This document shows positions 5,081 through 63,505 of a stretch of DNA of 64,000 nucleotides, piece by piece. Each line of letters starts with the position of its first letter. The first letter of the stretch is position 1. The DNA is taken from the NCBI RefSeq assembly GCF_005771675.1, contig NZ_VAJM01000009.1, positions 1 to 64,000 of the forward strand, written 5' to 3'. The notes beneath the pieces are model-generated. The model did no database searches. It saw nothing but the letters and a program-made list of their open reading frames with translations, and was not told where the DNA came from. Source of the DNA: Hymenobacter jeollabukensis (GTDB lineage Bacteria > Bacteroidota > Bacteroidia > Cytophagales > Hymenobacteraceae). Made by a program: the position numbers and the translations under genes.

Positions 5081-5353
5081 CCCTGACCTGCGCTAAATTG
5101 TTGCTGACGTGGTCTTAGGACGTACTGACATGCTATAAATCTGTGCTGACGTGGTCTTAGGACGTACTGACGTGCTCTAAATCTGTGCTGACGTGGCCTT
5201 AGGGCTTGCTGACCAGGTCTAAATCGTCGCTGACGTGCTCTAAGCGGGCGCTGACTAGTTCTAACTACGTGCTGACGTGGTCTTAATGGTTGCTGGCGGC
5301 TGCTTAGGCGGAGCTGACCAGGGGGAAATCTGTGCTGACTGGGGCTGAAGATG
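5081..5353. repeat. 13 tandem copies of a degenerate 21-bp repeat
   Basis: Thirteen units of exactly 21 bp fit head to tail, starting at 5081, 5102, 5123, 5144, 5165, 5186, 5207, 5228, 5249, 5270, 5291, 5312 and 5333. The core is CTGACGTGGTCTTA, with CTGAC (11 of 13 units exact, counting CTGGC as a variant) and a TAA/TAG/GAA step ten bases later. The first units alternate A-B-A-B (ending GGACG and AATCTG), so the older period may be 42 bp. No spacers occur, so it is not CRISPR. As 21 is a multiple of 3, the minus strand stays open and reads as heptapeptides (LRPRQHR, FRARQYV), while the plus strand frame carries periodic stops. It fills the gap between the HD gene and the S9 peptidase promoter. 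Confidence 0.9.
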
Positions 5354-5411
5354 GGGTGGGCGGCGGCGCAACGTGGCGGGCGGTGGGTGTGTCGTTGCGG
5401 GCCGGGTGCGT

Positions 5412-18522: not shown

Positions 18523-19278
18523 ATGGCTTCTTTTTTCCAAAAGCTTTTCGGTCGGAGTGCGGCCGTCGCGCCGGCTACGCTGGCCTCGTTGGGCACCGAC
18601 ATGCACTCCCACCTGCTGCCCGGCCTCGACGACGGGGCCGAAACGCTGGAACAGTCGGTGGAGCTGCTGCGCCTGATGCAGACGCTGGGCTACCGCAAGC
18701 TGGTGATGACGCCCCACATCATGGGCGACTTTTACCGCAATACCCCCGAGGGCGTGCGCGGCGCGCTGGCCAGCCTGCAGCAGGCCGCCACCGCCGCCGG
18801 CATCGAGGTGGAGCTGGACTGCGCGGCGGAATATTACCTCGACGAGTTTTTTATGCGGCGCCTGGAAACCCGGGACGAGCTGCTGAGCTTCGGCGGCGAC
18901 AAGCGCTACGTGCTCTTTGAGACGTCGTACATCAACGAGCCGTTCAACCTGCAGGAAGCGGTGTTCGGGCTGAAATCGGCGGGCTACCAACCAGTGCTGG
19001 CCCACCCGGAACGCTACACTTACCTGTACGGCCGCTTCCCGGAGCTGGAAAAAATCCGCGAAAACGGGGCCTTGCTGCAAGTCAACCTCAACTCCCTGGT
19101 GGGCTACTACTCCAGCGGCGCCAAGCGCGTGGCCGAGAAGCTCATCGACGCGGGCCTGGTCGACTTCGTGGGCACCGACGCGCACAACCTCAAGCACATG
19201 TCGGCGCTGAACCGGGTGCTGGAAAGCGAGTACCTGACCAAGCTGCTGCGCCTGCCGCTGCGCAACGCGGAACTGTAA
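18523..19278 (+). CDS. CpsB/CapC/YwqE-type tyrosine-protein phosphatase
   Basis: A 251-residue PHP-domain metal-dependent phosphatase that dephosphorylates the BY-kinase tail. Metal ligands are visible: HSHLLPGLDDG near residue 28, the MTPHIMGDFY motif, ETSYI, AHPERYTYL and VGTDAHNLKHM. The N-terminal MASFFQKLFGRSA looks amphipathic and may bring it to the membrane. With the upstream lipoprotein and kinase it completes the Wza-Wzc-phosphatase set. The glycosyltransferases and polymerase of the polysaccharide are not in the window. A repeat-armed inverted repeat begins one base after its stop. Confidence 0.93.
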   Translation: MASFFQKLFGRSAAVAPATLASLGTDMHSHLLPGLDDGAETLEQSVELLRLMQTLGYRKLVMTPHIMGDFYRNTPEGVRGALASLQQAATAAGIEVELDCAAEYYLDEFFMRRLETRDELLSFGGDKRYVLFETSYINEPFNLQEAVFGLKSAGYQPVLAHPERYTYLYGRFPELEKIRENGALLQVNLNSLVGYYSSGAKRVAEKLIDAGLVDFVGTDAHNLKHMSALNRVLESEYLTKLLRLPLRNAEL

Positions 19279-19279
19279 A

Positions 19280-19373
19280 TCAATGAGTGGATAAGCGACT
19301 GAGTGAATGAGTGATTCTCGTATGAACGTCCCTTCAACTCACTCATTCGCTCATTTACTCATTCACTCATTGA
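19280..19373. repeat. Inverted repeat with 8-bp TGAGTGAA-type tandem arms
   Basis: The 5' arm (19280-19314) and 3' arm (19339-19373) match in about 29 of 35 positions after reverse complement. Each arm is itself a tandem array of an 8-bp word, TGAGTGAA on one side and ACTCATTC on the other. It starts one base after the phosphatase stop and ends four bases before the next ATG, so it fills the whole gap. Confidence 0.85.
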
Positions 19374-19377
19374 ACCT

Positions 19378-20391
19378 ATGATATTCGTTACCGGCGGCAG
19401 CGGCCTTGTGGGTTCCTACCTGATTCCGGCCTTGTTGGCGCGGGGGCTGAGCGTGCGGGCGCTGTACCGCCAGGCCGTGCCCCGGCACGTGCCCGGCCAC
19501 GAGCGGGTGGAGTGGGTGGAGGGCGAGCTGCGCGACTCCGGCGTGCTGCTGGAGGCCCTGGCCGGCGTCACGCACGTGTTTCACTGCGCCGGCCTCGTGT
19601 CGTATGCGCCGCAGGATGCTGAGCTGCTGCGACAAGTAAACGTGGAAGGCACCGCGGCCGTGGTGGATGCCTGCCTGGCCCGGCCGGGCGTGCGGCTGTG
19701 CTACGTATCGTCGGTGGCGGCGCTGGGCGGGCTGCCCGAAACGGCCACCGGGCCCGAGCTGGACGAATCGGCCAAATGGGACCTGGGCGCGGCCCACGGC
19801 CACTACGCCACCAGCAAGTATCTGGGCGAGACGGAGGTGTGGCGCGGCGTGGCCGAAGGCCTGTCGGCCGTCATCGTGAATCCTTCCGTCATCCTCGGCG
19901 CCACCGACTGGGAGCGGAGCAGCACCCGACTATTTCGCTACGCCCACCAGCAGCATTCGTTTTACACGCCGGGAAGCGTTAATTTTGTAGATGTACGCGA
20001 CGTGGTGGCAGCCATGCTGCGGCTGACTTTGGACCTTGCGGTGACGGGCGAACGGTACATCCTGAGTGCCGGCGCGCTGCCGCTGGGCGAGTTTTTCCGG
20101 CAGACCGCCGCTTGCTTCGGCAAGAAGCCCCCGACGGTGGAAGTGCCCGATTGGGCGGCCGAAGCCATCTGGCGGCTGGAGCACGTGCGCAGCCTGATCA
20201 GTGGTTCCCGGCCGCTGATTACCAAGGATACCGCCCGCGCCGGGCGGCGGCCGGTGGTGTATCAGGCCGGGAAGGTGCAGCAGGCTACCGGCCTGCGCTT
20301 CCGGCCGGTGGAGGAAACCATCCGCTGGGCCTGCGCGGCCCTGGCGGCCGGGCCGAACTCGCAGCCGGTTTCGGGGGTTGTAATACCCTAG
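19378..20391 (+). CDS. NAD-dependent epimerase/dehydratase, extended SDR
   Basis: A 337-residue Rossmann enzyme starting MIFVTGGSGLVGSYL, with the TGGSGLVGS nucleotide-binding loop at residues 5-13, VFHCAGLVSYA, the Ser of the triad in YVSSVAALGG, and the YATSK motif near residue 143. VNPSVILGATDW is typical of the dihydroflavonol-4-reductase-like branch of NAD-dependent epimerases, so the substrate could be a sugar nucleotide or another hydroxy compound. Position after the polysaccharide cluster hints at a sugar, but this is inference only. There is no membrane segment. Confidence 0.85.
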   Translation: MIFVTGGSGLVGSYLIPALLARGLSVRALYRQAVPRHVPGHERVEWVEGELRDSGVLLEALAGVTHVFHCAGLVSYAPQDAELLRQVNVEGTAAVVDACLARPGVRLCYVSSVAALGGLPETATGPELDESAKWDLGAAHGHYATSKYLGETEVWRGVAEGLSAVIVNPSVILGATDWERSSTRLFRYAHQQHSFYTPGSVNFVDVRDVVAAMLRLTLDLAVTGERYILSAGALPLGEFFRQTAACFGKKPPTVEVPDWAAEAIWRLEHVRSLISGSRPLITKDTARAGRRPVVYQAGKVQQATGLRFRPVEETIRWACAALAAGPNSQPVSGVVIP

Positions 20392-26744: not shown

Positions 26745-28115
26745 ATGAAAAAACTGCCGCTGCTGCTGCCCGCTGCCCTGTTGCTGCTGGCCGCGTGCAA
26801 TCAGAACGCTAAAACTGCCGAAACATCCACGCCTGCTCCGCCGCCGCCCGCCACGGCCGATACGGCCGCCGCCACCGGCAGCCGCGTGGAGCTGCCCCCG
26901 CCCAACGCCACCAAGTCCGTCACCAAGCGCGTCGACATCATCGACTGGCCGGCCGGCAAGACGCCCGTAGCCCCGGCCGGCTTCACCGTCACCAAGTATG
27001 CCGACGGCTTCGAGGGCCCGCGCTGGCTGTACGTGCTGCCCAACGGCGACGTGCTGGTGGCCGAAGCCAGCACCATCCCGATGGGCGTCAAGAAGAAAAT
27101 TGCCGCCGAGCTGAACCTCGACAAGTCGCGCGCCCTGCGCGAGAGCAGCGCCAACCGCATCACCCTGCTGCGCGACGCCAACAAGGACGGCCAGCCCGAG
27201 GTGCGCGAAACCTTCCTGACGGCCGCCAACGGCCTCAACCAGCCCTTCGGCATGCTGCTGATCGGCGACTATTTCTACGTGGCCAACACCGACGGCGTGC
27301 TGCGCTTCCCCTACCAGGCCGGGCAGACCAGGCTCGGCGGTCAGGGCCAGAAAATCATGACCCTGCCCAAGGGCGGCTACAACAACCACTGGACCCGCAA
27401 CCTGCTGGCCGGGCCCGATGGCAAGCAGATTTACGTGTCCGTCGGCTCGGGCTCCAACGTGCAGGAGCACGGCCCGGCCAACGAAATCCGCCGGGCCAAC
27501 ATTCTGCGCATCAATGCCGACGGCTCGGGCGAGCAGGTGTACGCCAGCGGCCTGCGCAACCCCGTGGGCATGGCCTGGAACCCCGCGACCAAGCAGCTCT
27601 GGACGGCCGTCAACGAGCGCGACGAGCTGGGCGACGACCTCGTGCCCGACTACCTGACCAGCGTGCGGGAGGGCGGCTTCTACGGCTGGCCCTACGCCTA
27701 CTTTGGCCCGCACGAAGACCCGCGCCGCCAGGGCGAGCGGCCCGAGCTGGTGCAGAAAACCATCGTGCCCGACGTGCCGCTGGGCCCGCACACCGCCTCG
27801 CTCGGCCTGGCGTTCTACGACGCCAAAGCCTTTCCTGCCAAGTACCAGGGCGGCGCCTTTATCGGCCAGCACGGCTCCTGGAACCGCTCGGCCTACTCGG
27901 GCTACAAGGTGGTATTCGTACCCTTCAGCGGCGGCAAGCCCAGCGGCCCGCCCGAAGACTTCCTGACCGGCTTCCTGGCCGGCGGCGAAAAAGCTTACGG
28001 CCGCCCCGTCGGCACTTTCGTCGCCCCCGACGGCGCCCTGCTCGTCACCGACGACGCGGCCAACACCATCTGGCGCGTGGCGGCCAGCAGCGGCACGGCC
28101 GCCGGCAGCCGGTAA
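26745..28115 (+). CDS. PQQ-dependent sugar dehydrogenase (sorbosone dehydrogenase type), lipoprotein
   Basis: A 456-residue lipoprotein (lipobox LLAAC, Cys at about residue 18) followed by an Ala/Pro/Thr linker and a six-bladed propeller. Motifs: GFEGPRWLYVLPNGDVLVAE, NQPFGMLLIGDYFYVANTDG, NNHWTRNLLAGPDG, YVSVGSGSN, LRINADGSGEQVYASGLRNPVGMAW, TAVNERDELGDDLVPDY, GFYGWPYAYFG, FIGQHGSWNRS. This is the L-sorbosone dehydrogenase branch, distinct from the T9SS enzyme at 1068-2480. Both would need PQQ; no PQQ synthesis gene is in the window. A stem-loop and palindromic repeat follow the stop. Confidence 0.9.
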   Translation: MKKLPLLLPAALLLLAACNQNAKTAETSTPAPPPPATADTAAATGSRVELPPPNATKSVTKRVDIIDWPAGKTPVAPAGFTVTKYADGFEGPRWLYVLPNGDVLVAEASTIPMGVKKKIAAELNLDKSRALRESSANRITLLRDANKDGQPEVRETFLTAANGLNQPFGMLLIGDYFYVANTDGVLRFPYQAGQTRLGGQGQKIMTLPKGGYNNHWTRNLLAGPDGKQIYVSVGSGSNVQEHGPANEIRRANILRINADGSGEQVYASGLRNPVGMAWNPATKQLWTAVNERDELGDDLVPDYLTSVREGGFYGWPYAYFGPHEDPRRQGERPELVQKTIVPDVPLGPHTASLGLAFYDAKAFPAKYQGGAFIGQHGSWNRSAYSGYKVVFVPFSGGKPSGPPEDFLTGFLAGGEKAYGRPVGTFVAPDGALLVTDDAANTIWRVAASSGTAAGSR

Positions 28116-28132
28116 GAGCGCCCAAACAAGCC

Positions 28133-28324
28133 CGTCATCCTGAGCAACGCGAAGGACCTTCCTCAAGCCTCGCACCAACCGAAAAGCGCAGCCACCAACG
28201 CCCTACTTTTGGGCAAGGTGGCTGCGCTTCTTGGTTAGTTTCCGTTGCCGAAAAAGCGTCTGCTCATTGTCGGTTGCGGCAGTGCAGGGTGTGAGGAAGG
28301 TCCTTTGCGTTGCTCAGGATGACG
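28133..28324. repeat. Palindromic dispersed repeat, CGTCATCCTGAGC type
   Basis: Arms at 28133-28165 and 28292-28324 are reverse complements in 32 of 33 positions; both contain GTCATCCTGAGCAACGC and AAGGACCTTCCTCA. This resembles a dispersed repeat (GTCATCCTGAGCGAAGCGAAGG type) known from many bacterial genomes. Between the arms lies the terminator of the dehydrogenase gene. A sister element occurs at 55218-55320. Confidence 0.85.
28184..28229 (+). terminator. Stem-loop after the dehydrogenase gene
   Basis: A 13-bp perfect stem AAGCGCAGCCACC / GGTGGCTGCGCTT with a 20-nt loop. The T run is weak, so its strength is uncertain. Confidence 0.55.
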
Positions 28325-28345
28325 TTCTGTTTCGGCAGGCGGTGC

Positions 28346-28353: not shown

Positions 28354-28387
28354 ACCCCGTTCTTTGCCATCCGCAATTGCCGTAGAA

Positions 28388-28553
28388 AGGTGCCGGGCTC
28401 CCGAGTTCGGCTGAAAAAGGAACCGTGTGTGATTCACGGGCTGACGCGCAACTGTAAGTAACACTACCCCGGGCAGCCCCCGCAGGCCATTGCTTCGTGC
28501 CCCGAAGCGAGAAGGCCGGCCGCCCCGTTACGAGCCAGGAGACTTGCCTACCT
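28388..28553 (+). ncRNA. Cobalamin riboswitch (class I type)
   Basis: The conserved blocks occur in the right order: AGGTGCC (closing stem with TGCCTACCT at the 3' end), GGCTGAAAAAGGAA, TGTGTGATTCACGGGCTGACG, GCGCAACTGTAAG, GGCCATTGCTTC, GAGAAGGCC, and the B12 box GAGCCAGGAGACTTGCC. The AGGT (28388-28391) and ACCT (28550-28553) pair as P1. Unlike the second riboswitch at 63246-63443, no cobalamin uptake or synthesis gene follows; the next gene is an acyl-CoA thioesterase, with a terminator just before its start. Confidence 0.85.
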
Positions 28554-28681
28554 ACGACGTGACGCGCGCTTCCGCGACCTGAAGCTGCCGTCGGGCCAAT
28601 TGATGCCGCACTGCCGCTGCCGGGGCCACGCTGCCCGGGCCGGGGCGGGCGCGTCCGTATGGGTCCGGGGCGGAGTAGGGC

Positions 28682-53851: not shown

Positions 53852-56191
53852 TTATACCAGCAACAGGCCTTTTTCGCGCAGCAGCAGCCAAGTGGGCGAA
53901 ATCAGCCAGGCCTCGAACGACAGGCCGGCCTCGGCGGCGGGGAAGGCCGCGGCGGCTTCTTTGAGCAGCACTTTGGTGTCGTAATCGGCCGAAAGCCGGG
54001 TGAGCAGGTTGGTCAGCCAGCGGCCGATGACGGGCGTAGTTTTCAGCTCGAAGTCCTCGGCCTGCTCGTAGAACGTGAGCACGGCCTGCTCGGTGGCGCG
54101 GCCTTTCTTGTGGCGGGTTTCCAGGCGCAGCTCGGGCGCGTTGCCCAGCCAAAACAGGCGCAGGTTCTGCTTGGCCAGGTCGGGCTTGCCGGGCTCCGTC
54201 AGGGCCGACTCGATGAGCTGGCGCGGGACGGTGGTGCGCGGTACCCGCAGTTCATCGAACCAGAACTGCAGCGGCTCGGTGAGGGCCACGCCGTGCATGT
54301 AGTTGTAGAGCGCCTTGGCCAGGCCGGGGCCGAACCGCTCGTGGTCGGCGCCGGTGGGGTCGTCGTGCCAGAGGTCGTTCCAGGCAAAGTCGCCGGGCTC
54401 GGGGCCGATGGGCTGCACTTTGTATTTCGCCGGGTTCTGGCCCACGGGTGAGTGGGCCGTCATGGCGAAGCGGTGCCAGTAGCCCGACTGCACGATGCCG
54501 GCCTGGAACAGCTGGCGCACCACTTCCAGCGAATCCACGGTTTCCTGGGCAGTTTCGGTGGGGAAGCCGTACATCAAATACGCGTGTACCATGATGCCAG
54601 CCTGGGTGAAGCCCTCCGTCACGCGGGCCACCTGGGCAATGGTGACGCCCTTTTCCATCAGCGCCAGCAGCCGGTCCGAAGCCACTTCCAGCCCGCCTGA
54701 CACGGCAATGCAGCCCGCGGCGGCCAGCAGCCGGCAGAGGTCAGGTGTGAAGGTTTTCTCGAAGCGGATGTTGCCCCACCAGGTGATGCTCACGCGGCGG
54801 CGCAGCAGCTCGATGGCCAGGTCGCGCAGGGCCAGGGGCGGCGCGGCCTCGTCCACGAAGTGGAAGCCCGTCTGCCCGGTTTGCCGCACGATTTGCTCGA
54901 TACGGTCGACCAGCAGGGTGCTCGGGGCGGTTTCGTAGCGGCGGATGTAGTCCAGCGTCACGTCACAGAAGCTGCAGCGCTTCCAGTAGCAGCCGTGGGC
55001 CACGGTGAGCTTGTTCCAGCGCCCGTCGCTCCAGAGCCGGTGCATGGGGTTCAGCACCTCAATCACCGAGAGGTAGTCCCGGATCGGCAGCCCGTCGTAG
55101 TCCGGCGTCCCGACTTCGGTGTGCGGAATGTCGGCCGTGGTGGCTTCGTTGTGGTATTCCACCTGGCCGGTGGCGGGGTTGCGCAGGAAGGTGCGCTGGT
55201 ATCGCGGTTCCACTAGAACGTCATGCTGAGCTTGCCGAAGCATCTCTACCGCTGACGTGGGATAAAAATTACTATCAGCCGAAGCGGTAGAGATGCTTCG
55301 ACTGCGCTCAGCATGACATTCTTTTTCCTCGCCCAGGTACGCCAGCAGCCGCAGCCAGGGGCCTTCGCCGTCGTCGAGGGTGAGGTAGTCGATGTAGTCG
55401 AAGAAGCGCGGCTCCTTGATGCCGCGCAGCTCGGTGTTGGGGTAGCCGCCGCCCATCAGCGTGCGGATTTCGGGGCGCTGCTGCTTGGCAAACTGGGCCA
55501 GGCGCAGGGCGCCGTAGAGGTTGCCGGGGAAGGGCACCGTGAAGCCGATGAGGTCGGGCTGCTCGCGCTCCAGCACTTCGGCGAAGCACTCCAGCATGAA
55601 CTCGTCTACCAGGTTCGGGGCCGTTTGCAGCGCGTCGTGGAGCTCATCGAAGCTGGTAGCGGTGAGGCCCAGGTGCTCAGCGTAGCGCGAGAAGCCGAAC
55701 TGCGGGCCGACGGTTTCCTTGAGCAGGTCGGCCAGGTCTTCGAGGTAGAGCGTGGCCAGGTGGCGGGCCTGGTCGGTGAGGCCCATGGTGCCGAAGGCCG
55801 ATTCGAGGTCGGCCACGTTGTCGAAGCGGGCCGCTTCGGGCAGGAAACGGCCGTGGCAGATGCGCGGGGCTAGCGTCAGGTCCTTGTTCTGCAGAAAGCG
55901 AATGACCGGCTCCACCGTGCTTTCGTAGCGGTGGCGCAGGCGCAGCATCCGCCGGGAGTTGTCCGTCAGCTCGAATCCTCCTCGCTCGATGGCATCGAAC
56001 ACCCGGCGCAGTCCGGCGGCCGAAAACAGCCGTAGCACCAGCTCAATGCCGATATCGGCCTGGGCGGCGTGGTAGCCGCGCCCGCGCAGAAAGCCCGTGA
56101 GGTAGGCCGTGGCCGGGTACGGGGTGTTCAGCTGCGTGAGCGGCGGGGTGATGAGGAGGATGCGCAAGGGCGTCGTAGATGTCGTCGGCAC
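53852..56191 (-). CDS. B12-binding domain radical SAM protein
   Basis: A 779-residue enzyme using S-adenosylmethionine, a 4Fe-4S cluster and probably cobalamin. The start is taken as the GTG at 56191 (MPTTSTTPLRILLITPPLT); the frame runs on upstream to a TTG. The N-terminal half (about 17-290) has a B12-binding Rossmann-like part, with DLIGFTVPFPGNLYGALRLAQFAKQQ and IRTLMGGGYPNTELRG. The radical SAM barrel starts at LTVAHGCYWKRCSFCDVTLDYIRR; the cluster Cys spacing is C-x4-C-x2-C. Then VSGGLEVASDRLLALMEKGV and AYLMYGFPTETAQETVDSLE follow. A palindromic repeat is inserted in frame (55218-55320) between the two domains. Substrate unknown. Confidence 0.88.
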   Translation of the reverse strand: MPTTSTTPLRILLITPPLTQLNTPYPATAYLTGFLRGRGYHAAQADIGIELVLRLFSAAGLRRVFDAIERGGFELTDNSRRMLRLRHRYESTVEPVIRFLQNKDLTLAPRICHGRFLPEAARFDNVADLESAFGTMGLTDQARHLATLYLEDLADLLKETVGPQFGFSRYAEHLGLTATSFDELHDALQTAPNLVDEFMLECFAEVLEREQPDLIGFTVPFPGNLYGALRLAQFAKQQRPEIRTLMGGGYPNTELRGIKEPRFFDYIDYLTLDDGEGPWLRLLAYLGEEKECHAERSRSISTASADSNFYPTSAVEMLRQAQHDVLVEPRYQRTFLRNPATGQVEYHNEATTADIPHTEVGTPDYDGLPIRDYLSVIEVLNPMHRLWSDGRWNKLTVAHGCYWKRCSFCDVTLDYIRRYETAPSTLLVDRIEQIVRQTGQTGFHFVDEAAPPLALRDLAIELLRRRVSITWWGNIRFEKTFTPDLCRLLAAAGCIAVSGGLEVASDRLLALMEKGVTIAQVARVTEGFTQAGIMVHAYLMYGFPTETAQETVDSLEVVRQLFQAGIVQSGYWHRFAMTAHSPVGQNPAKYKVQPIGPEPGDFAWNDLWHDDPTGADHERFGPGLAKALYNYMHGVALTEPLQFWFDELRVPRTTVPRQLIESALTEPGKPDLAKQNLRLFWLGNAPELRLETRHKKGRATEQAVLTFYEQAEDFELKTTPVIGRWLTNLLTRLSADYDTKVLLKEAAAAFPAAEAGLSFEAWLISPTWLLLREKGLLLV
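55218..55320. repeat. Palindromic dispersed repeat inserted in frame in the radical SAM gene
   Basis: Arms at 55218-55253 (GTCATGCTGAGCTTGCCGAA, GCATCTCTACCGCT) and 55283-55320 (AGCGGTAGAGATGCTTCGAC, GCTCAGCATGAC) match with one indel. In the protein it reads CHAERSRSI...EMLRQAQHD, a phrase familiar from many proteins that carry such elements. The frame is preserved, so about 35 residues were added between the B12-binding and the radical SAM domains. Confidence 0.9.
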
Positions 56192-56227: not shown

Positions 56228-56235
56228 CAAAGGTA
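56228..56235 (-). promoter_or_regulatory. -7 promoter box TACCTTTG of the radical SAM gene
   Basis: Exact TAnnTTTG on the minus strand, 36 bases before the GTG start. It is the first part of a 59-bp element shared with the btuB leader. Confidence 0.6.
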
Positions 56236-56286
56236 GACCACGGATTACTGCGGATTTTTTCGGATGCCACGGATTTTGTGGACGGC
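56228..56286 (-). repeat. Promoter-associated repeat, copy A (also at 63450-63505)
   Basis: On the plus strand it reads CAAAGGTAGACCACGGATT, then CGGATTTTTTCGGATGCC, then ACGGATTTTGTGGACGGC. The copy at 63450-63505 differs by a few substitutions and three single-base gaps. In both, the end nearest the gene is the -7 box, so on the gene's strand the repeat covers the -7 box and the region just upstream. Confidence 0.85.
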
Positions 56287-56510
56287 CCGGGTCTGCCGGG
56301 CAGCCGGCCTCAAGCCGGCCGCCCGTTGTGGTGCCGAAAACAAGCGTGCTGGCGTGGAAACGGCAGCCGTTATCGGGTCTGCAGGCGTAAAAGACTCCTC
56401 TTGGGCCAGCCCGAAAACTACCCGTTGACGTTCGACGTGCCGGCCCGCATTCTGAGCAACACCGGCCGGCTGGACCACCACGATAAATGCCCGGCGCAGC
56501 CTGATTGAAC
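56287..56510. other. Intergenic region with one GC hairpin
   Basis: Contains GGGCAGCCGGC...GCCGGCCGCCC (56299-56325), a hairpin without T run. No gene is convincing; a short plus-strand frame ending near 56508 has protein-like words (PENYPLTFDVPARIL) but no start, so it may be a remnant. Confidence 0.4.
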
Positions 56511-57989
56511 TTACATCTTCATCCCGCCGCCCATACGCATCAGCGGCGCATTCAGGCGCAGGTACACCTCGGCCGATACCGGCGTCTTGCCATAGTAGCC
56601 GCGCAATTCCGAATCCGGGCGGTACACCGAGCCCTGCGCGCCCAGGTGCAGCTCAGGGCCTTTGGCGCCAAGCTGGGTGAGGCGGTAGCTGGTGCCCAGG
56701 GTGAGGGCGTGGATGTTGAACGCACTGGCGCCTTCGTGCAGGTGCGGCACCTGCATCTCGTCGGGGTCTTTCTGCACGAACTCGTAGCGGCCGTACACGG
56801 TGGGGCGGCCCAGCGTGAGGTTGGTTTCGGTCAGCACGGCGTGCTCCCGGCCGTGGTCCGATTTATTCAGGCCCCAAATCAGCGAGGAGGCCACGAAGCG
56901 GTAATCGGCCCACTGGTGACTGTGGAGCACGGCGGCGGTGGTGCGCGTCACGTTGTCCTCGAGGTGCAGCTCCTCGGGGCTTTTGATGCGGGCCTGCCCG
57001 GCTTCGAGCACCAGCTCCTTGGTCGGGGCCCACTGCAGGCGGGCGGCCCAGGAGTCGGCGCGGGGGCGGTCGAAACCGTAGCGGTGCTCGTCGGGCTCCC
57101 GGCCGGTGAAGTTGGAGCCCTCGATTTTGAATTGCTTGTAGCGCAGGCCCACGGTGGCTACCCCGAAGGTGATGTGCGTCGCGTCGACCCAGTGGTGGGA
57201 GAGGGGCGCGTCGGGGTTGGGCATGGCCGAAATGCGGTGCATAAAGGCCGTCGGGCCCACGGCCGGCTCGCCGGGGTAGCCCAGGTACAGCGTCAGGTCC
57301 ACGTCCTGCGAAAAGGCGTGGGTGTAGCCGATGCTCAGGGCCGAAAACAGGTCGTGCGGGTGCTGGCGGTCCACCAGCGGCTGGCCTCGGTAGGCTTCAC
57401 CCGACTGAAACAGCAGCGGGTAGCCGTTGCCGCCCTCGGTCAGCGGGTCCAGCGAAATCATGGCCGTCAGGTTCAGCAGGCCTTTTTCGCCGATGTTGCG
57501 CTGGGCCATGGTCATAAACCAGTTGGGCGCGTCGAAGGTGCGGCCGCCGCGCTGGCCGCCGGAGCGGCCGAGGTTCTGGTTGGTGTAGCGGCCGAACAGG
57601 GCGCCGTGGTTCATCACCATCCACTTGCCGTGGTGGCTCATCCACATATACATCGGCGTGGCGTCGGGCTGCCAGGCCGTGCCCGAGCCGTTGCGGGCCA
57701 TGGGCAGGTTGCGCGAGTACGCGTGCGACATGCCTTCCATCCCCCCGTGCATGTCGTGCGACATGGCGGAGTCGGCACCCATGCCCGGCATCGGGTGGCC
57801 AGCGTGCTGACTGTGGTCGGGGGCGGCTGGCTGAGCGTGGTCGGCGTGGTTCATGCCCGGCATGGCGTGGCCCTGGTGGGTGGTATCGGCGGGCGCCGGA
57901 CGGGCGGGCTGCGCGGGCGGGTTATGCTGGTGCTGGGCAGCGGCAGCCAGGGGCAGCAGTAGCGCCAGGAGGGGCAGAAGTCGTTTCAT
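56511..57989 (-). CDS. His/Met-rich exported outer-membrane-like protein, possible metal role
   Basis: A 492-residue protein with a signal peptide (MKRLLPLLALLLPLAAAAQ). Residues 19-95 are very rich in His, Met, Pro and Asp (HQGHAMPGMNHADHA, HAGHPMPGMG, HDMHGGMEGMSH), typical of copper- or silver-binding segments. The rest looks like an outer-membrane barrel with many strands (WFMTMAQRN, VDLTLYLGYPGE, TLGTSYRLTQLGAKGPELHLG). It lies close to the HMA-AraC regulator at 58484-59047, which supports a metal link. The terminal GGGMKM adds two more Met. Binding is inferred only. Confidence 0.75.
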   Translation of the reverse strand: MKRLLPLLALLLPLAAAAQHQHNPPAQPARPAPADTTHQGHAMPGMNHADHAQPAAPDHSQHAGHPMPGMGADSAMSHDMHGGMEGMSHAYSRNLPMARNGSGTAWQPDATPMYMWMSHHGKWMVMNHGALFGRYTNQNLGRSGGQRGGRTFDAPNWFMTMAQRNIGEKGLLNLTAMISLDPLTEGGNGYPLLFQSGEAYRGQPLVDRQHPHDLFSALSIGYTHAFSQDVDLTLYLGYPGEPAVGPTAFMHRISAMPNPDAPLSHHWVDATHITFGVATVGLRYKQFKIEGSNFTGREPDEHRYGFDRPRADSWAARLQWAPTKELVLEAGQARIKSPEELHLEDNVTRTTAAVLHSHQWADYRFVASSLIWGLNKSDHGREHAVLTETNLTLGRPTVYGRYEFVQKDPDEMQVPHLHEGASAFNIHALTLGTSYRLTQLGAKGPELHLGAQGSVYRPDSELRGYYGKTPVSAEVYLRLNAPLMRMGGGMKM

Positions 57990-58154
57990 CGGAGGCAGTA
58001 GTCAGTGCTAGCCTACATACCCCGATACCGGCCCCGGGGTTGGTGCAGGATTAGGGGTCCGGCCGTACGATATTTGGCGGGCCCGGCCGCACCCGAGGCG
58101 TGGTTTTGGTGTTAAGCGTAAACACCCGCGTGGGCCCCGCTGCCGCATTCCCGT

Positions 58155-58481
58155 ATGAGCACGAATCCATTCTATCAGCAGATTCAGGCGGCGTACCGCG
58201 CCCAGCTACGGCCTTCGGAGCAGGAAATCGAGCAGGCGCTCCGCCGCATCTACGGCCACCAGTTTCACCTCACCTCCGCCGGCCCGCGCATGATTGCCGG
58301 CGCGGAATCGGTGCGCAATATCATCCGCACCATCAACCGTATCCGGCTGGAAACCGGGTTTCTGGAAAGCTATGTGGCCGTGCCCCCGCCCAGCCCGCCG
58401 GCCATCCGCTGCGCCCACGAGGGCTGCCAGGAGCTAGCCCTCGACCGGGGCAGCTTCTGCTACATGCACGACGCCGAGTAG
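58155..58481 (+). CDS. Small protein with C-terminal Cys/His cluster, unknown function
   Basis: A 108-residue protein from ATG 58155. The N-terminal two thirds are helical and polar (QQIQAAYRAQLRPSEQEIEQALRRIYG); the C-terminus has CAHEGCQELALDRGSFCYMH, a Cys-x4-Cys...Cys-x2-His arrangement that could bind zinc. No family was recognised. It converges with the HMA-AraC gene, two bases apart. Confidence 0.65.
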   Translation: MSTNPFYQQIQAAYRAQLRPSEQEIEQALRRIYGHQFHLTSAGPRMIAGAESVRNIIRTINRIRLETGFLESYVAVPPPSPPAIRCAHEGCQELALDRGSFCYMHDAE

Positions 58482-58483
58482 CG

Positions 58484-59047
58484 CTAGGCTAGCTGGTCGA
58501 GCGAGGTGCGCCGGGGGTGGGCCTTGTACTCGGTTACCGTCTGGCCCGTCACCTGCCGAAACTGCGTGCTCAGGTGCTGGGAGGAGCTGTAGCGCAGCTC
58601 GTCGGCAATTTCGGCCAGAGTGAGCTGCCCGTAGCTGAGCAGCTCCTTCACCCGCTCAATTTTCAGGCGGATGAGGTATTTCTCCAGCGTCAGGCCCACC
58701 AGGCGCGAAAACAGCTTGCTCAGGTGGGCATACGACGCTTCAAACCGCTCTTCCAGGAAAGCCGAGGTGGTCAGCGGGGCGCGGGCCGTGCGCAGGTGCT
58801 CCAGGTAGGCGGCCAGCGCCACTTTCACCTGCTCCACCAGTTGCTCGTCGCGGCTTTGCAGCAGCTCGAAGCCGGCCGCTTCCAGCCGCGGGCGCAGCTG
58901 CGCCGGGTCGGCCGGGGTGGCCTCATGCAGCACGGCGTGGCCCAGCGTGACTTCCGTGGGCTGCAGGCCGGCGTCGGTCAGGATTTGCTGCACGGTGCTG
59001 ATGCAGCGCGGGCAAACCATGTTTTTGATGTGCAGCTCGGTGGTCAT
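58484..59047 (-). CDS. AraC family regulator with N-terminal HMA (CxxC) domain
   Basis: A 187-residue fusion from ATG 59047. The first 65 residues are a heavy-metal-associated domain, with MTTELHIKNMVCPRCISTVQQ (metal-binding Met-x-Cys-x2-Cys). The C-terminal 100 residues are an AraC helix-turn-helix pair: LTTSAFLEERFEASYAHLSKLFSRLVG and LTLAEIADELRYSSSQHLSTQFRQVTG. This layout suggests a metal- or copper-sensing activator whose HMA domain binds the ion or a chaperone partner. It sits 9 bases from the next membrane gene on the same strand. Confidence 0.85.
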   Translation of the reverse strand: MTTELHIKNMVCPRCISTVQQILTDAGLQPTEVTLGHAVLHEATPADPAQLRPRLEAAGFELLQSRDEQLVEQVKVALAAYLEHLRTARAPLTTSAFLEERFEASYAHLSKLFSRLVGLTLEKYLIRLKIERVKELLSYGQLTLAEIADELRYSSSQHLSTQFRQVTGQTVTEYKAHPRRTSLDQLA

Positions 59048-59055
59048 GGCGCGGG

Positions 59056-59433
59056 TTAGTCGGAGGTGGTCGGCGTGCGGGGGGCGTAGCGGGTGGGCTT
59101 GGGCGTGGCCGGCGTTTTGGGCGTGTTGCTGGCCCGGGGCTTGCGCGCGGGCTGTGGCGTGGGATGCTCGGCCCAGCTGCGGCCAAACCAGTTGTCGGCC
59201 GCCCAGTTGACAAACGGCACCACCGCCAGAAAAGTGACGCCCAGCAGCACAAACCACACGAACGTGGCCCCCATCAGCCGGCCGAAAAAGCCGTCGAACC
59301 CGAACAGGTAGGCCACCAGCAGCAACGATAGCCCGAAGCTGACGGCCAGCAGGATGCCGGCCCGGCGCACCAGTGGGTGCGTCAGCCAGGATGAATTGCG
59401 GGAAGCAGAAGCGCGACGACGGGGAGCAGCCAT
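59056..59433 (-). CDS. Small membrane protein, unknown function
   Basis: A 125-residue protein from ATG 59433. The basic N-terminus (MAAPRRRASASRNSSW) is followed by two membrane helices (about residues 26-46 and 58-78), and a Pro/Thr/Lys-rich tail (KPRASNTPKTPATPKPTR). No function is suggested. It precedes the HMA-AraC gene by 8 bases and may share its transcript. Confidence 0.6.
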   Translation of the reverse strand: MAAPRRRASASRNSSWLTHPLVRRAGILLAVSFGLSLLLVAYLFGFDGFFGRLMGATFVWFVLLGVTFLAVVPFVNWAADNWFGRSWAEHPTPQPARKPRASNTPKTPATPKPTRYAPRTPTTSD

Positions 59434-59685
59434 TCGGCAAAGATAGACCCCGGAATCGGTCTGCCCGCAGGCCCGCCCGGGGGGCGGGCGCGGAGCCCTT
59501 GGCCGGGGGCAGGTGCGTTGCAAGCGGGGCATTCGGCCGGTTTCGGGGCAGCCGGGGCGCTTAGCGGCCGCGAAATCAACCACATAACCAAAGCCCGGCG
59601 GCCGCGTTTGTGCTAGCAGCGGCATTTTGCCGGCTCCGGCCGCTGCGTATATTGCCTGCCGACCATACTTACTCCCTCAACTTCC

Positions 59686-59958
59686 ATGAACACCTTCCTC
59701 CACCCGCTGCGCACCCTGGGCGCGGCCCTGCTGCTGGCCGCCGGCCTCAGCGCCTGCAGCACCGGCACCGAATCGGGCGACACCAACGTGGAACGCGGCA
59801 CCGAAAAAGTGGCCCGCGACCCTGGCGCCCAGTCCGCCAACGGCGGCATCGACACGATGCGGGCCCAGCGCGACACCGCCGTCAGCGCCCAGGAACGTCT
59901 CTACGATAAGTCGCGCAACCGGAAAGACCGCGACAACGACGGCAAAGCCGACCAGTAA
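59686..59958 (+). CDS. Small lipoprotein, unknown function
   Basis: A 90-residue lipoprotein (MNTFLHPLRTLGAALLLAAG, lipobox LSAC). The mature part is highly charged and ends KSRNRKDRDNDGKADQ. No domain was seen. A strong terminator follows. Confidence 0.65.
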   Translation: MNTFLHPLRTLGAALLLAAGLSACSTGTESGDTNVERGTEKVARDPGAQSANGGIDTMRAQRDTAVSAQERLYDKSRNRKDRDNDGKADQ

Positions 59959-59976
59959 ATTGGCTGCCTGCTAACG

Positions 59977-60018
59977 AAACCGGCCCCGCCAGCACGTAGC
60001 TGACGGGGCCGGTTTATT
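59977..60018. terminator. Bidirectional terminator between the small lipoprotein gene and the btuG-like gene
   Basis: Stem AAACCGGCCCCGCCA / TGACGGGGCCGGTTT (15 positions with one mismatch), 9-nt loop; TTTATTGT follows. Confidence 0.75.
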
Positions 60019-60046
60019 GTAGTGAGGCTGGGCGCTCTGGGTCGGC

Positions 60047-61093
60047 TTAGCGGAACGAGAAGGCGCTGGCCCCGATGCCCACCGTAAACGAATCAACGGG
60101 CGCGTAGCTGGTGTTGTAGCGCACGGCGCGGCCATCGGCCGAGAACGAGCCGGTAGCCAGGTACAGCTCGTTGTTGCTCGGGTCGACGCCGAAGCCGTTG
60201 AAGCTGCGGCGGCGCAGCACCGGCGTCGTGGGCGGCGCCGTGGCGGTGGTGGCCATGCGGTAGATAGCCGAGCCGTAGCTGTAGTACAACGCCGTGCGGT
60301 CGGAGGAAAGCTGCAGCTCGGTGGGGCCGCCCGCCGTGAAGGCGAAGGTAGCCTGGCTGGCGTACGGGGCCGTGGCCGAAAAGCGAATCAGCGCCCCGGG
60401 CCTCGCGCCATAGTTGCCGTCGCAGGCCACCCACACGTTGCCGCTGGCGTCTTGCACGAGGGATTTGGGGCCCGCCGCCACGGTCAGCGTGGTTTCCACT
60501 TGGTTGGAGGTCAGGTCAACGACGCTGATGGTGTTTTCGTCGCCGTTCGGCACAAACAGCTTGTTGCCGGCCACCAAGGCCTTTTCCGGATTGCGGCCTA
60601 CCGTCACGGTGCTGGTCACGCTGTTCGTGTTCAGATCGATGACGGACACGCGGCCGGCCAAATAGTTGGGGTAGGCGCCCTGCCACTCGGTGAGGTAGCC
60701 CTTGCTGCCGCTCGCAGCCAGGTAGCGCGGCTGCGAACGGCCGTCGATGGAGGCCACGGCGTTGAACTTGGGCAGTTCCACCACTTCCACCTTGCCGCTG
60801 TTGTTCACCACCACGTAGCCCTTGTTGCCCACCACCGTCATCGACTGCACCACGTCGCCCACGGTGCGGCCGTTAGCGCGTTGAAACTGGTCTTTTTCCG
60901 ATTCCTTGGTTTCGCGCCGGTAGCCGCTCACCGAGCCATTCGGGGTACCGTACTGGCCCTGGTTCAGCACGTACACGTTGGCGTCAAGGGTCTTTTTTTC
61001 GGTTTCGTCTTTGCCGCAGCTGCTCAGTAGCGTGGCCGCCAGCGGCAGCGTCAGCAGGGGGCGAAGTCGGAGGGCGAGGGGAGAGAATTGCAT
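60047..61093 (-). CDS. BtuG-like beta-propeller lipoprotein (YncE/DUF5074-type), B12 capture
   Basis: A 348-residue lipoprotein (lipobox LLSSC, Cys near residue 26). The rest is a seven-bladed propeller with repeated blades: MTVVGNKGYVVVNNSGKVEVVEL, YLAASGSKGYLTEW, RVSVIDLNTNSVTSTVTVGRN, KLFVPNGDENTISVVDLTSNQVETTLTVA. It stands 27 bases after btuB, under the same cobalamin riboswitch. In Bacteroides, BtuG is a surface propeller that binds B12 tightly and hands it to BtuB; context and fold make this the best guess, though sequence identity was not measured. Confidence 0.82.
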   Translation of the reverse strand: MQFSPLALRLRPLLTLPLAATLLSSCGKDETEKKTLDANVYVLNQGQYGTPNGSVSGYRRETKESEKDQFQRANGRTVGDVVQSMTVVGNKGYVVVNNSGKVEVVELPKFNAVASIDGRSQPRYLAASGSKGYLTEWQGAYPNYLAGRVSVIDLNTNSVTSTVTVGRNPEKALVAGNKLFVPNGDENTISVVDLTSNQVETTLTVAAGPKSLVQDASGNVWVACDGNYGARPGALIRFSATAPYASQATFAFTAGGPTELQLSSDRTALYYSYGSAIYRMATTATAPPTTPVLRRRSFNGFGVDPSNNELYLATGSFSADGRAVRYNTSYAPVDSFTVGIGASAFSFR

Positions 61094-61120
61094 GGGGTAT
61101 GATGGAAAAGTGAATGTCGA

Positions 61121-63079
61121 TTAGTGCCAGGCCACGCGCAGGCTCAGCGTGCCCGCGCGCGGCGGCATAGCCCGGAACGCGTAGTTCTGGTAGCGGGCGT
61201 TGGTGAGGTTATGGCCCTGCAGCAGGGCCGTCAGCTGCCAGCGGCCGCAGTGCCAGCGGCGCCCCACGCTGCCGTGCAGCAGGGCGTAGGCGGGCAGAAA
61301 GTCCGAGCCCGAGGCCGTGGTGTAGCGCTGGTCGGTGAAGGTGGCGGCCGTGGTCAGCAGCCAGCCGCGCCAGTCGTGGTCGGTGCTGAGCGAGGCGGTG
61401 TGCCGTGGCACGTAGGCCAGCTGCACGCCCACCGGGTCAGAATCCTGAACGTAACCGCGGCGCTTCTGGCTCTGAGTAAAGGCATAGCCAGCCGTGGCGC
61501 GCAGCTGGTAGCGCCCGCGGCGCCACTGGGCCTGGGTGCTGGCTTCGAGGCCCTGGCTGCGCACCTGGCGTAGGTTCTGGGGCGTCCAGGTACCGTTGGC
61601 GTCGGGCAGCCACTGCACCCAGTTGTCCACCAGCAGGCGGTAGGCCGTCAGGTCGGCCTGCAGGCTGAGCTGGGCGCTGGGCAGCGCTGCGTAGTGCAGG
61701 CCCGCTTCGCCACCGACGCTGGTTTCGGGCCGCAGGTCGGGGTTGCCGCCGGGGCGCCAGTACCGCTCGTTCAGGGTAGGGGCGCGGTAGCTGCGGGCGG
61801 CGCTGGCCTTCAGCCACAGCTGCTGCCGGGCCGTGCGCCAGGCCTGCCACTCCGCGCCGGCCGTGGGCGCCAGCGGCGGCCGGCGGCCGGGCAGCGCGGC
61901 CTGGCGGGCGTTCAGCGTGAGACGCAGCCGGGCCGAAGGGTCGTAGCGCAGCAGGGCAAAGCCGGCGTAGCGCTGCTCCTGCACCGGGCGACGGTAGCCA
62001 TCCACGCGGGCCACGAAATGCTGGGCTTCGGCCCCAAGGCGCAGGCTGAGATTAGGGCGCCACTGCCAAGTGTGTTCCAGCTGGGCCTGCCGCACGCTGC
62101 TGCGCGAGTGGCTGGTGCTGAGCTGGTCGTTCTGGTAGTCGATCAGGTCGCCGAACCAGGCGGCCCGTACGCTGGTTTCGCTGCGGGCGGCGCGGCGGCG
62201 GTAGCCCAGCACCGCGCGGGCGCTTTGGTCCCGCTCGCGGGCGTGGTTGTTGCTGGAGCCGATGGCGGGCTGAATCTGCCGGTTGGCGTCGGTGAGCCAG
62301 AGCGCAGCCGTGACTTCGCCGCGCCGGCCGACCTGCACCGTCACGTCCTGCTGCAGACTGCTCTGCGTGAGGGCCGCGTTTTCCTGGCGCCGCCGCACCT
62401 CGCCCTGCAGCTCCCGGCTATAGTAATGGAAGTCGTTGTCGGCCTGCCGCACCAGGAAGCTGGTGCGCACCGCCACGCGGGCGTCGCGCTGGCTGCCGCT
62501 GAAGCTGAAGGCCCGGGCCCCAAAGCTGCCCGCTTCCGCCGAGGCGCTGACCTGCGTGCCCGTTGGCGCCGTGGCCGAGCCGAGGACCACCGCGCCGCCC
62601 ACCGCGCCGGTACCGTAGAGCGCCGCCGCTGGCCCGTGCTGCACGTCCACGCGGCCCAAACCGGCCACTGGCAGCAGGGAAAAATCCGCTTCGCCCAGGG
62701 TCGGAAAGTTCAGGTTGAAGCCGTGCCAGAGCACCGCCGTGTGCCGCGCCGACGTGCCCCGAATCGACAAGGAAGCCAGCTGCCCCGGGCCGTAGGTGCG
62801 CAGATACAGCGGCGTGCGGCCCGATAGCGCATCGGCCACCGTGCCACCCTGGTAAGGCGCCAGCGCGGCCGAGTCGAGGGAGGTGAAGCGGCTACCGGCA
62901 GCGTAGCGCGTGGGCCGCAGGGCCTGCACCCGCACCGTGGGCAGCACGTGCCGGGCTGAATCAGCCGAGGCGGTACGGCCCGATTGTGCCCACGCCGGCG
63001 CGAGGCCGCTGCCAAGCAGCAGCGCTAGCCAACCGCGACCAAGCGCGGAGCAGAAACGGGGAGCGTACAACCGAACCAA
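61121..63079 (-). CDS. btuB: TonB-dependent vitamin B12 receptor
   Basis: A 652-residue outer-membrane transporter. The start is taken as the TTG at 63079, the first start codon ahead of a signal peptide (RGWLALLLGSGLAPAWAQ); no ATG exists in this part of the frame. The plug domain shows YQGGTVADALSGRTPLYLRTYGPGQLASLSIRGTSARHTAVLWHGF and LPVAGLGRVDVQHGPAAALYGTGAVGGAVVL; the barrel ends with a terminal aromatic-rich strand (AGTLSLRVAWH). The cobalamin riboswitch 167 bases upstream and the BtuG-like gene downstream fix B12 as the substrate. It works with TonB-ExbBD, not in the window. Confidence 0.92.
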   Translation of the reverse strand: MVRLYAPRFCSALGRGWLALLLGSGLAPAWAQSGRTASADSARHVLPTVRVQALRPTRYAAGSRFTSLDSAALAPYQGGTVADALSGRTPLYLRTYGPGQLASLSIRGTSARHTAVLWHGFNLNFPTLGEADFSLLPVAGLGRVDVQHGPAAALYGTGAVGGAVVLGSATAPTGTQVSASAEAGSFGARAFSFSGSQRDARVAVRTSFLVRQADNDFHYYSRELQGEVRRRQENAALTQSSLQQDVTVQVGRRGEVTAALWLTDANRQIQPAIGSSNNHARERDQSARAVLGYRRRAARSETSVRAAWFGDLIDYQNDQLSTSHSRSSVRQAQLEHTWQWRPNLSLRLGAEAQHFVARVDGYRRPVQEQRYAGFALLRYDPSARLRLTLNARQAALPGRRPPLAPTAGAEWQAWRTARQQLWLKASAARSYRAPTLNERYWRPGGNPDLRPETSVGGEAGLHYAALPSAQLSLQADLTAYRLLVDNWVQWLPDANGTWTPQNLRQVRSQGLEASTQAQWRRGRYQLRATAGYAFTQSQKRRGYVQDSDPVGVQLAYVPRHTASLSTDHDWRGWLLTTAATFTDQRYTTASGSDFLPAYALLHGSVGRRWHCGRWQLTALLQGHNLTNARYQNYAFRAMPPRAGTLSLRVAWH

Positions 63080-63245
63080 AATTTTCGTAGCCGAAAAATT
63101 CGGTTCAGAACCAGGCGCGCGGCCGTGTAGGCTACTTACCGGGCTGAGGCAGAATCAGGGAAGCCGGGCCCGCCGCCAGATGACGACACCGCCCAAAATG
63201 ATTCATTCTCCGCCCGTCCTCCGCAGGCGCCGAACACTAAGATGC

Positions 63246-63443
63246 GCACGGGCAGGTCTCCTGACTTGCTTCGCGCCGGGCGGCCTTCCCATTCCTCCGC
63301 CGGTCAGGTCGACCGGCATCAGCGGAACAGTGGCGAGGTGGGCCCGGCGCATGATGGAAGCTTACAGTTGCGGGGACAGCTGCCGAATTTCACGGCATTC
63401 CCTTTTCAGCCGCGCCCCCCGATTGGGGTCTGGCCACCCATGC
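63246..63443 (-). ncRNA. Cobalamin riboswitch of the btuB operon
   Basis: On the minus strand the conserved blocks are GCATGGG (5' closing stem), CGGCTGAAAAGGGAA, GCCGTGAAATTCGGCAGCTG, TCCCCGCAACTGTAAG, GCCACTG, GGGAAGGC, and the B12 box AAGTCAGGAGACCTGCC, closing with CCCGTGC. A TATCTTTG promoter box lies 7 bases upstream. It represses btuB when B12 is plentiful. Confidence 0.93.
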
Positions 63444-63449
63444 GTGGGG

Positions 63450-63457
63450 CAAAGATA
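63450..63457 (-). promoter_or_regulatory. -7 promoter box TATCTTTG of the btuB leader
   Basis: Exact TAnnTTTG on the minus strand, directly ahead of the riboswitch. Confidence 0.65.
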
Positions 63458-63505
63458 ACCACGGATTCGACGGATTTTTCGGATTCCACGGATTTTGTGG
63501 ACGGC
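63450..63505 (-). repeat. Promoter-associated repeat, copy B (also at 56228-56286)
   Basis: Plus strand reads CAAAGATAACCACGGATT, CGGATTTTTCGGATTCC, ACGGATTTTGTGGACGGC. It begins at the -7 box of the btuB leader, just as copy A does for the radical SAM gene. Confidence 0.85.

Follow-up and report, generated by a model that had tools for sequence, protein, structure and literature searches.

MITEs derive from transposase-bearing elements. Two other systems bear on the repeat considered here, namely the S23 intervening sequences of 23S rRNA, which are removed by RNase III (PMC4990558), and REPs, which are short, dispersed palindromes, often paired between convergent genes, with positions that include some less than 20 bp from ORF ends (PMC3733652). 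The repeat, which we followed from Hymenobacter jeollabukensis into its relatives, consists of dispersed arms that pair inward, are placed at gene boundaries, are associated with genes of the GxxExxY family, and occur at sites that are filled in some genomes and empty in others.

Each of the known systems matches this repeat in part. Like the repeats of RAYT REPtrons, the arms are short and dispersed, frequently occur as pairs where genes converge, and lie near the 3' ends of ORFs. REPs have a GTAG or CGTC tag at one end; on the opposite strand the inner end of the arm gives CGTC(CAC), and in most copies of H. jeollabukensis that strand begins with CGTCCAC, a sequence that is not constant between species. 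On the other hand, a REP is a palindrome of 20-40 bp, whereas the arm of ~50 bp is a row of iterated words in which the only visible pairing is a 4-bp CCAC/GTGG match at the inner end, short of the palindrome that defines a REP. Unlike the repeats of a RAYT REPtron, the arms are also linked to GxxExxY rather than to RAYT, and they end exactly at stop codons. The likeness to MITEs lies in a non-coding element with inverted terminal arms, a short interior and longer gene-bearing relatives, and the terminal inverted repeats around a short non-coding interior that are expected of a MITE are present in 65 inward pairs, mostly with interiors of 63-248 bp. However, the gene-bearing relative encodes a PDDEXK_3 protein and not a known transposase, no fixed target duplication was found, and the words in the arms differ between species, with the left and right arms remaining matched to each other.

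S23 intervening sequences likewise contain a small orphan gene, bounded by long terminal inverted repeats that pair into a stem in the RNA (PMC4990558), and the PF05635 loci of the genus also have iterated-word arms (18/23), but the units described here lie between protein genes and not in 23S rRNA, and their main family carries GxxExxY. The gene of the unit is itself a clear member of GxxExxY/PDDEXK_3 (PF13366), with all catalytic residues present. In the open-access papers searched we found no description of a gene-boundary element of this kind, and the family is apparently undescribed. We consider it likely that the two copies from which the analysis started are solitary arms of a dispersed, mobile gene-boundary element, and that the GxxExxY protein acts on such arms.

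Arms and inverted pairs at gene boundaries

The window, that is, the whole stretch of 64,000 nucleotides that was analysed, belongs to the H. jeollabukensis genome (G000; 27 contigs, 6.18 Mb). It contains two copies of the repeat, A and B, both of which point at minus-strand genes, encoding a Radical_SAM protein and a TonB-dependent receptor:

56236..56286, plus strand: copy A, a solitary arm; its CCAC end, on the left, touches the -7 box of the radical SAM gene
56228..56235, minus strand: -7-like box TACCTTTG of the radical SAM gene, kept in congeners without the repeat
53852..56191, minus strand: radical SAM gene (ORF and Pfam; the start at GTG 56191 is a reading of the ORF)
63458..63505, plus strand: copy B, a solitary arm; its CCAC end touches the -7 box of the receptor leader
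63450..63457, minus strand: -7-like box TATCTTTG of the receptor leader, kept in 7/7 congeners
63234..63456, minus strand: cobalamin riboswitch RF00174 in the receptor leader (99.3 bits), conserved in congeners
61121..63079, minus strand: gene of the TonB-dependent receptor, 3' of the riboswitch (ORF and Pfam)

The two copies are real, as the first-pass annotation had noticed: the alignment of 56228-56286 with 63450-63505 has 52 identities over 59/56 nt, and CAAAnnTA (TAnnTTTG on the minus strand) stands directly at the CCAC end of each, facing the gene. A BLAST search of the genome matched copy B at E=2.5e-12 and 88%. Copies in the genome numbered 32 in the first BLAST, 42 with a consensus query and 48 when matches above 30 bits within the fetched stretches were counted. 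Their arm consensus is ~GACCACGGATTCGACGGATTTTTCGGATTCCACGGATTTTGTGGACGATT, in which CGGATT words are repeated directly 9-11 bp apart, and some copies have ~20 extra bp. Of these 48 copies, 29 have their CCAC end at a distance of -2 to +1 nt from a gene's stop codon, and in eight this end abuts a TAnnTTTG box. Among eight congeners the copy number ranges from 0 to >40. As a side observation, longer arms of 69-70 bp with an inserted segment like GGCTACGCCGAACTTCG occur at L036:3147-3216, L042:4337-4405, L045:2893-2961 and L058:3117-3186, and similar inserts are present in arms of H. edaphi (G002) and Hymenobacter sp. CRA2 (G005).

The anatomy of the element was studied in a sample made up of Hymenobacter loci from a pattern scan of GTDB genomes, the H. 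jeollabukensis copies and three full units. Among copies with a long ORF ending nearby, 106/138 have their outer end -3 to +1 nt from the stop codon, a distance at which the inner end of the arm, taken as a control, was found in 1/65. Neighbouring copies less than 1 kb apart are almost always inward-facing, with their CCAC ends outward (65/69); none face outward and the other four are tandem doublings. Such an inverted pair usually fills the gap between convergent stop codons. Interiors measure either 63-248 bp or 470-879 bp: a strong hairpin, in many cases flanked by A or T runs, is present in 51/58 of the short ones, which by this likeness are probably for the most part bidirectional terminators, and a GxxExxY (PF13366, PDDEXK_3) gene is present in six of the seven long ones, three of these six loci having been picked up by the DNA pattern rather than by a protein search.

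In a complete unit, two inverted arms of ~40-50 bp each enclose either a bidirectional terminator or a GxxExxY/PDDEXK_3 gene. Each arm iterates a ~10-bp word (here CGGATT), and the outer ends of the unit lie at or a few nt from stop codons, start codons or a -7 promoter box. Arms match better within a pair than between loci, an effect that is weak in the Hymenobacter pairs, where 4/2000 permutations reach the observed value.

GxxExxY genes and their inverted arms

A PF13366 search found genes enclosed by GGATT-type arms in the congeners H. edaphi, CRA2 and G007, and in the last two both outer ends of the unit lie at the stop codons of two convergent genes. The same search found no GxxExxY gene in H. 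jeollabukensis, and its arms may therefore be relics or have been moved otherwise. The protein borne by the units matches PF13366 at 134.7 bits (curated cut-off 22). In 66 sampled GxxExxY proteins the E, D, ExK and QxxxY positions (G-E-Y, D, ExK, QxxxY) are 100% conserved, which we take to be the set of residues expected of an active RecB/Cas4-type PD-(D/E)XK nuclease. A search of solved structures with the protein returned no relative, and a structure predicted from three sequences was too poor to use (pLDDT 40).

The association extends well beyond the genus. GxxExxY proteins are encoded in 121/247 sampled Bacteroidota genomes, about half, and inverted repeats of iterated ~10-bp words flank 47 of 67 GxxExxY loci in this phylum, compared with 3/105 random ORFs. 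These 67 loci score at least 30 bits; two of them are halves of one broken gene, and those outside the genus are best-scoring matches, not a random sample. Beyond Hymenobacter the arm words are different (CGCAGAGTTT, CACAGAGTTA and similar). The same design surrounds genes for S23-type four-helix-bundle proteins (PF05635) in 18/23 loci (L231-L253), again with other words (CAGTTGT, AATTAAT, GGATGAA and others) in the inverted arms and often next to stop or start codons. S23 genes were also considered as carriers of the GGATT arm itself and were rejected, the arm being found at no PF05635 locus of the genus.

In RNA folding, the transcript of a full unit forms a 39-bp stem from its arms (z -6.9). 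By analogy with S23 intervening sequences the stem may have a role at the RNA level. The open-access literature searched contains almost nothing on GxxExxY proteins and nowhere describes an element context for them; their position inside iterated inverted repeats would give the family its first testable role.

Filled and empty sites

Two solitary arms of H. jeollabukensis are orthologous to parts or the whole of units in sister species, L060 (C24:309016) to a full unit of CRA2 and L063 (C23:18658) to the left arm of a unit in H. edaphi. At the L060 site, the eleven genomes compared agree on where the stop codon of a conserved gene lies but differ in what follows it. CRA2 and H. metallilatus have GxxExxY with arms; H. 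profundi and H. montanus have arms and a terminator; H. edaphi has arms with a CATTGCGAGC repeat, as does H. jeollabukensis with one arm; G004, G006 and G007 have the CATTGCGAGC repeat without arms; and G001 and G003 have other sequence. This comparison shows turnover at the site, and it is compatible with either the arms or the interior having come first. Which stop codon is used there varies with the local arm variant. The idea that the element supplies a new stop codon was dropped, as the presence of arms does not change the stop position at this site.

A second informative site is an operon junction between a gene ending in VVDSNKP and a gene starting with MKAEQF. In twelve Hymenobacteraceae loci it contains a GxxExxY unit of ~470 bp that starts at the stop codon or immediately behind it and ends at the start codon or immediately ahead of it. 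Without the unit, the two genes share an ATGA stop-start overlap in L336, L338, L340, L341 and L342, and gaps range from a few to 12 nt in other unit-free relatives. Two of the latter, G129 and G131, share 92-96% identity with the unit-bearing G093 in the flanking genes. In a tree of these genes, genomes with the unit are interspersed with compact ones. Repeated insertion at this one junction is the simplest reading of the pattern; exact losses on several occasions, or a transfer of the region from one species to another, could produce it as well. Left and right arms at this junction match at 0.85 within a species, compared with 0.68 for the same arm between species, and therefore the two arms either share a recent source or are kept matching. 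Between filled and empty sites the stop and start codons are kept, and no constant target-site duplication was found.

From these comparisons we infer that the unit is mobile and that it would insert into gene junctions while leaving both neighbouring genes intact. The GxxExxY protein would act on the arms to move or copy the unit, and empty pairs and single arms, copies A and B among them, would be short derivatives or remnants. Survival only of insertions in harmless places could explain the compact operon junctions; it could not explain arms exactly at both ends of ordinary convergent spacers. Such insertion would spare genes by falling at their ends. More tentatively, and with rather less than even confidence, we suggest that there may be a large, so far undescribed class of bacterial mobile elements that combine iterated-word inverted arms with a gene for either a GxxExxY nuclease or an S23-type four-helix-bundle protein, in place of one for a transposase. 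They would insert precisely and without damage at the edges of genes (stop codons, stop-start overlaps or -7 boxes), and their arms would be matched per locus and diverge between species. The element may also explain scattered CACGGATT and CACAGAG intergenic repeats.

Alternative readings and the B12-linked genes

One alternative is a REP- or MITE-like repeat moved by a RAYT or an IS transposase, with GxxExxY as a passenger in some copies. The size of the arms, their inverted pairing and their location between convergent genes all resemble REPs, which are also found near ORF 3' ends (PMC3733652), and H. jeollabukensis combines its 48 copies with one RAYT and no GxxExxY gene. Nevertheless, we consider this reading unlikely. 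RAYT number does not track copy number, CRA2 having 27 copies and no RAYT match and G003 one copy and four RAYTs, and the repeats next to RAYT genes are palindromic and different from the arms (in the genus, inverted repeats were found at 10 of 13 RAYT loci, and these are sequences other than the arms). Both the copy numbers and the RAYT flanks disagree with a RAYT-mobilised REP, which we rejected. A passenger role for GxxExxY is further at odds with the recurrence of inverted arms around these genes across Bacteroidota with unrelated words.

It could also be that the arms are a host 3'-end element under selection, each being a short stretch of 3'-UTR that precedes the terminator and serves in termination or mRNA stability, and that GxxExxY genes landed in the spacers. 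Such an element would fit the finding that most empty pairs have their arms placed between a stop codon and a bidirectional terminator, as well as the match between arms of one pair and the strong RNA stem that the arms of a full unit form. This seems to us rather improbable given that the same boundary has arms in some species and none in others, that arms also occur upstream of promoters and at operon junctions, and that the copy number varies from 0 to >40 among the eight congeners.

The mobile gene-boundary element, which remains our preferred reading, accounts for copies A and B differently from the first-pass annotation, which had proposed that they could be a shared upstream element co-regulating cobalamin import and cobalamin use. 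That proposal drew on a plausible B12 link in both genes and a copy at both promoters. The receptor is probably a cobalamin importer; the B12-binding match in the Radical_SAM protein is below threshold (29.7 bits, Pfam cut-off 32.1). Many copies at unrelated genes, which the annotation itself had named as evidence against its proposal, are what the sequence gives: the 48 copies are not restricted to B12-related genes, and most of them stand at the 3' end of an unrelated gene. Outside the window, the genes that follow promoter-side copies encode an ABC-F ATPase, a transaldolase and a LUD-domain protein, none with a known B12 link; two further such genes gave no Pfam match. Both cobalamin riboswitches of the genome are in the window, and only the one at 63234..63456 adjoins a copy; beside the second (28371-28565, plus strand) there is none among the copies found. 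B12 control of the receptor is already explained by its own riboswitch, and the radical SAM gene has no cobalamin riboswitch.

Six of seven congeners, moreover, lack the repeat at the radical SAM gene or have a mere remnant of it there: it is complete in H. edaphi only, there are remnants in G006 and G004, and none was found in G001, G003, CRA2 and G007. The repeat at the receptor is older and decaying, being clear in H. edaphi, longer in CRA2 and degenerate in the other congeners. Co-control of the B12 genes thus seems very improbable; both copies are ordinary representatives of a dispersed family, not a site of B12 control, and the arms have no demonstrated role in B12 metabolism.

The annotation's other suggestion, a dispersed repeat bringing a ready-made promoter to new genes, was borne out as far as dispersal goes, but to its promoter half we give almost no credence, since, for all that eight copies directly abut TAnnTTTG, most copies are at stop codons without a box, and the box at the radical SAM gene is conserved in 7/7 congeners, including G001, G003, CRA2 and G007 without the repeat, and therefore belongs to the gene and was not brought by the repeat. 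In Hymenobacter promoter regions, a sequence shared by several genes need not mark a regulon; it can instead be the arm of such an element.

Several other repeats were seen along the way. The window contains a second unit, with arms of another word:

19280..19314, plus strand: left arm of the second unit, TGAGTGAA type, beginning 1 nt after the stop TAA at 19276-19278
19339..19373, minus strand: right inverted arm of the second unit, ending 4 nt before the start ATG at 19378

These TGAGTGAA-type arms exactly fill the stop-to-start gap (19276-19380) in the design of the GGATT units with a different word. At 28122-28335, shortly after a stop codon (28113-28115) and just upstream of the second cobalamin riboswitch (28371-28565, plus strand), lies an inverted repeat of GTCATCCTGAGCAACGCGAAGGACCTT with 54-nt arms, and at 5083-5355 there is a row of ~21-bp direct repeats, CTGACGTGGTCTTAGGACGTA and variants. 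The repeats flanking Hymenobacter RAYT genes (L093, L094, L099 and others) are either of the classic palindromic type or long and inverted, and are not related to the GGATT arms. In Azospirillum (L109, L110, L112, L136, L153 and others), CACGGATTTCACGGATTTTTTCACGGATT repeats have the conserved flanks ACCGGAACAAGA and GGAACGCGTCTCAGAGCC and, unlike the Hymenobacter arms, make no contact with stop codons. Finally, a second dispersed family of ~190 bp (L042:2824-3025 and the interior of L060), in which inverted CATTGCGAGCGAAGCG ends enclose a terminator hairpin, occupies convergent spacers with or without GGATT arms outside it, and has about 80-90 matches in each of H. edaphi, CRA2 and G006.
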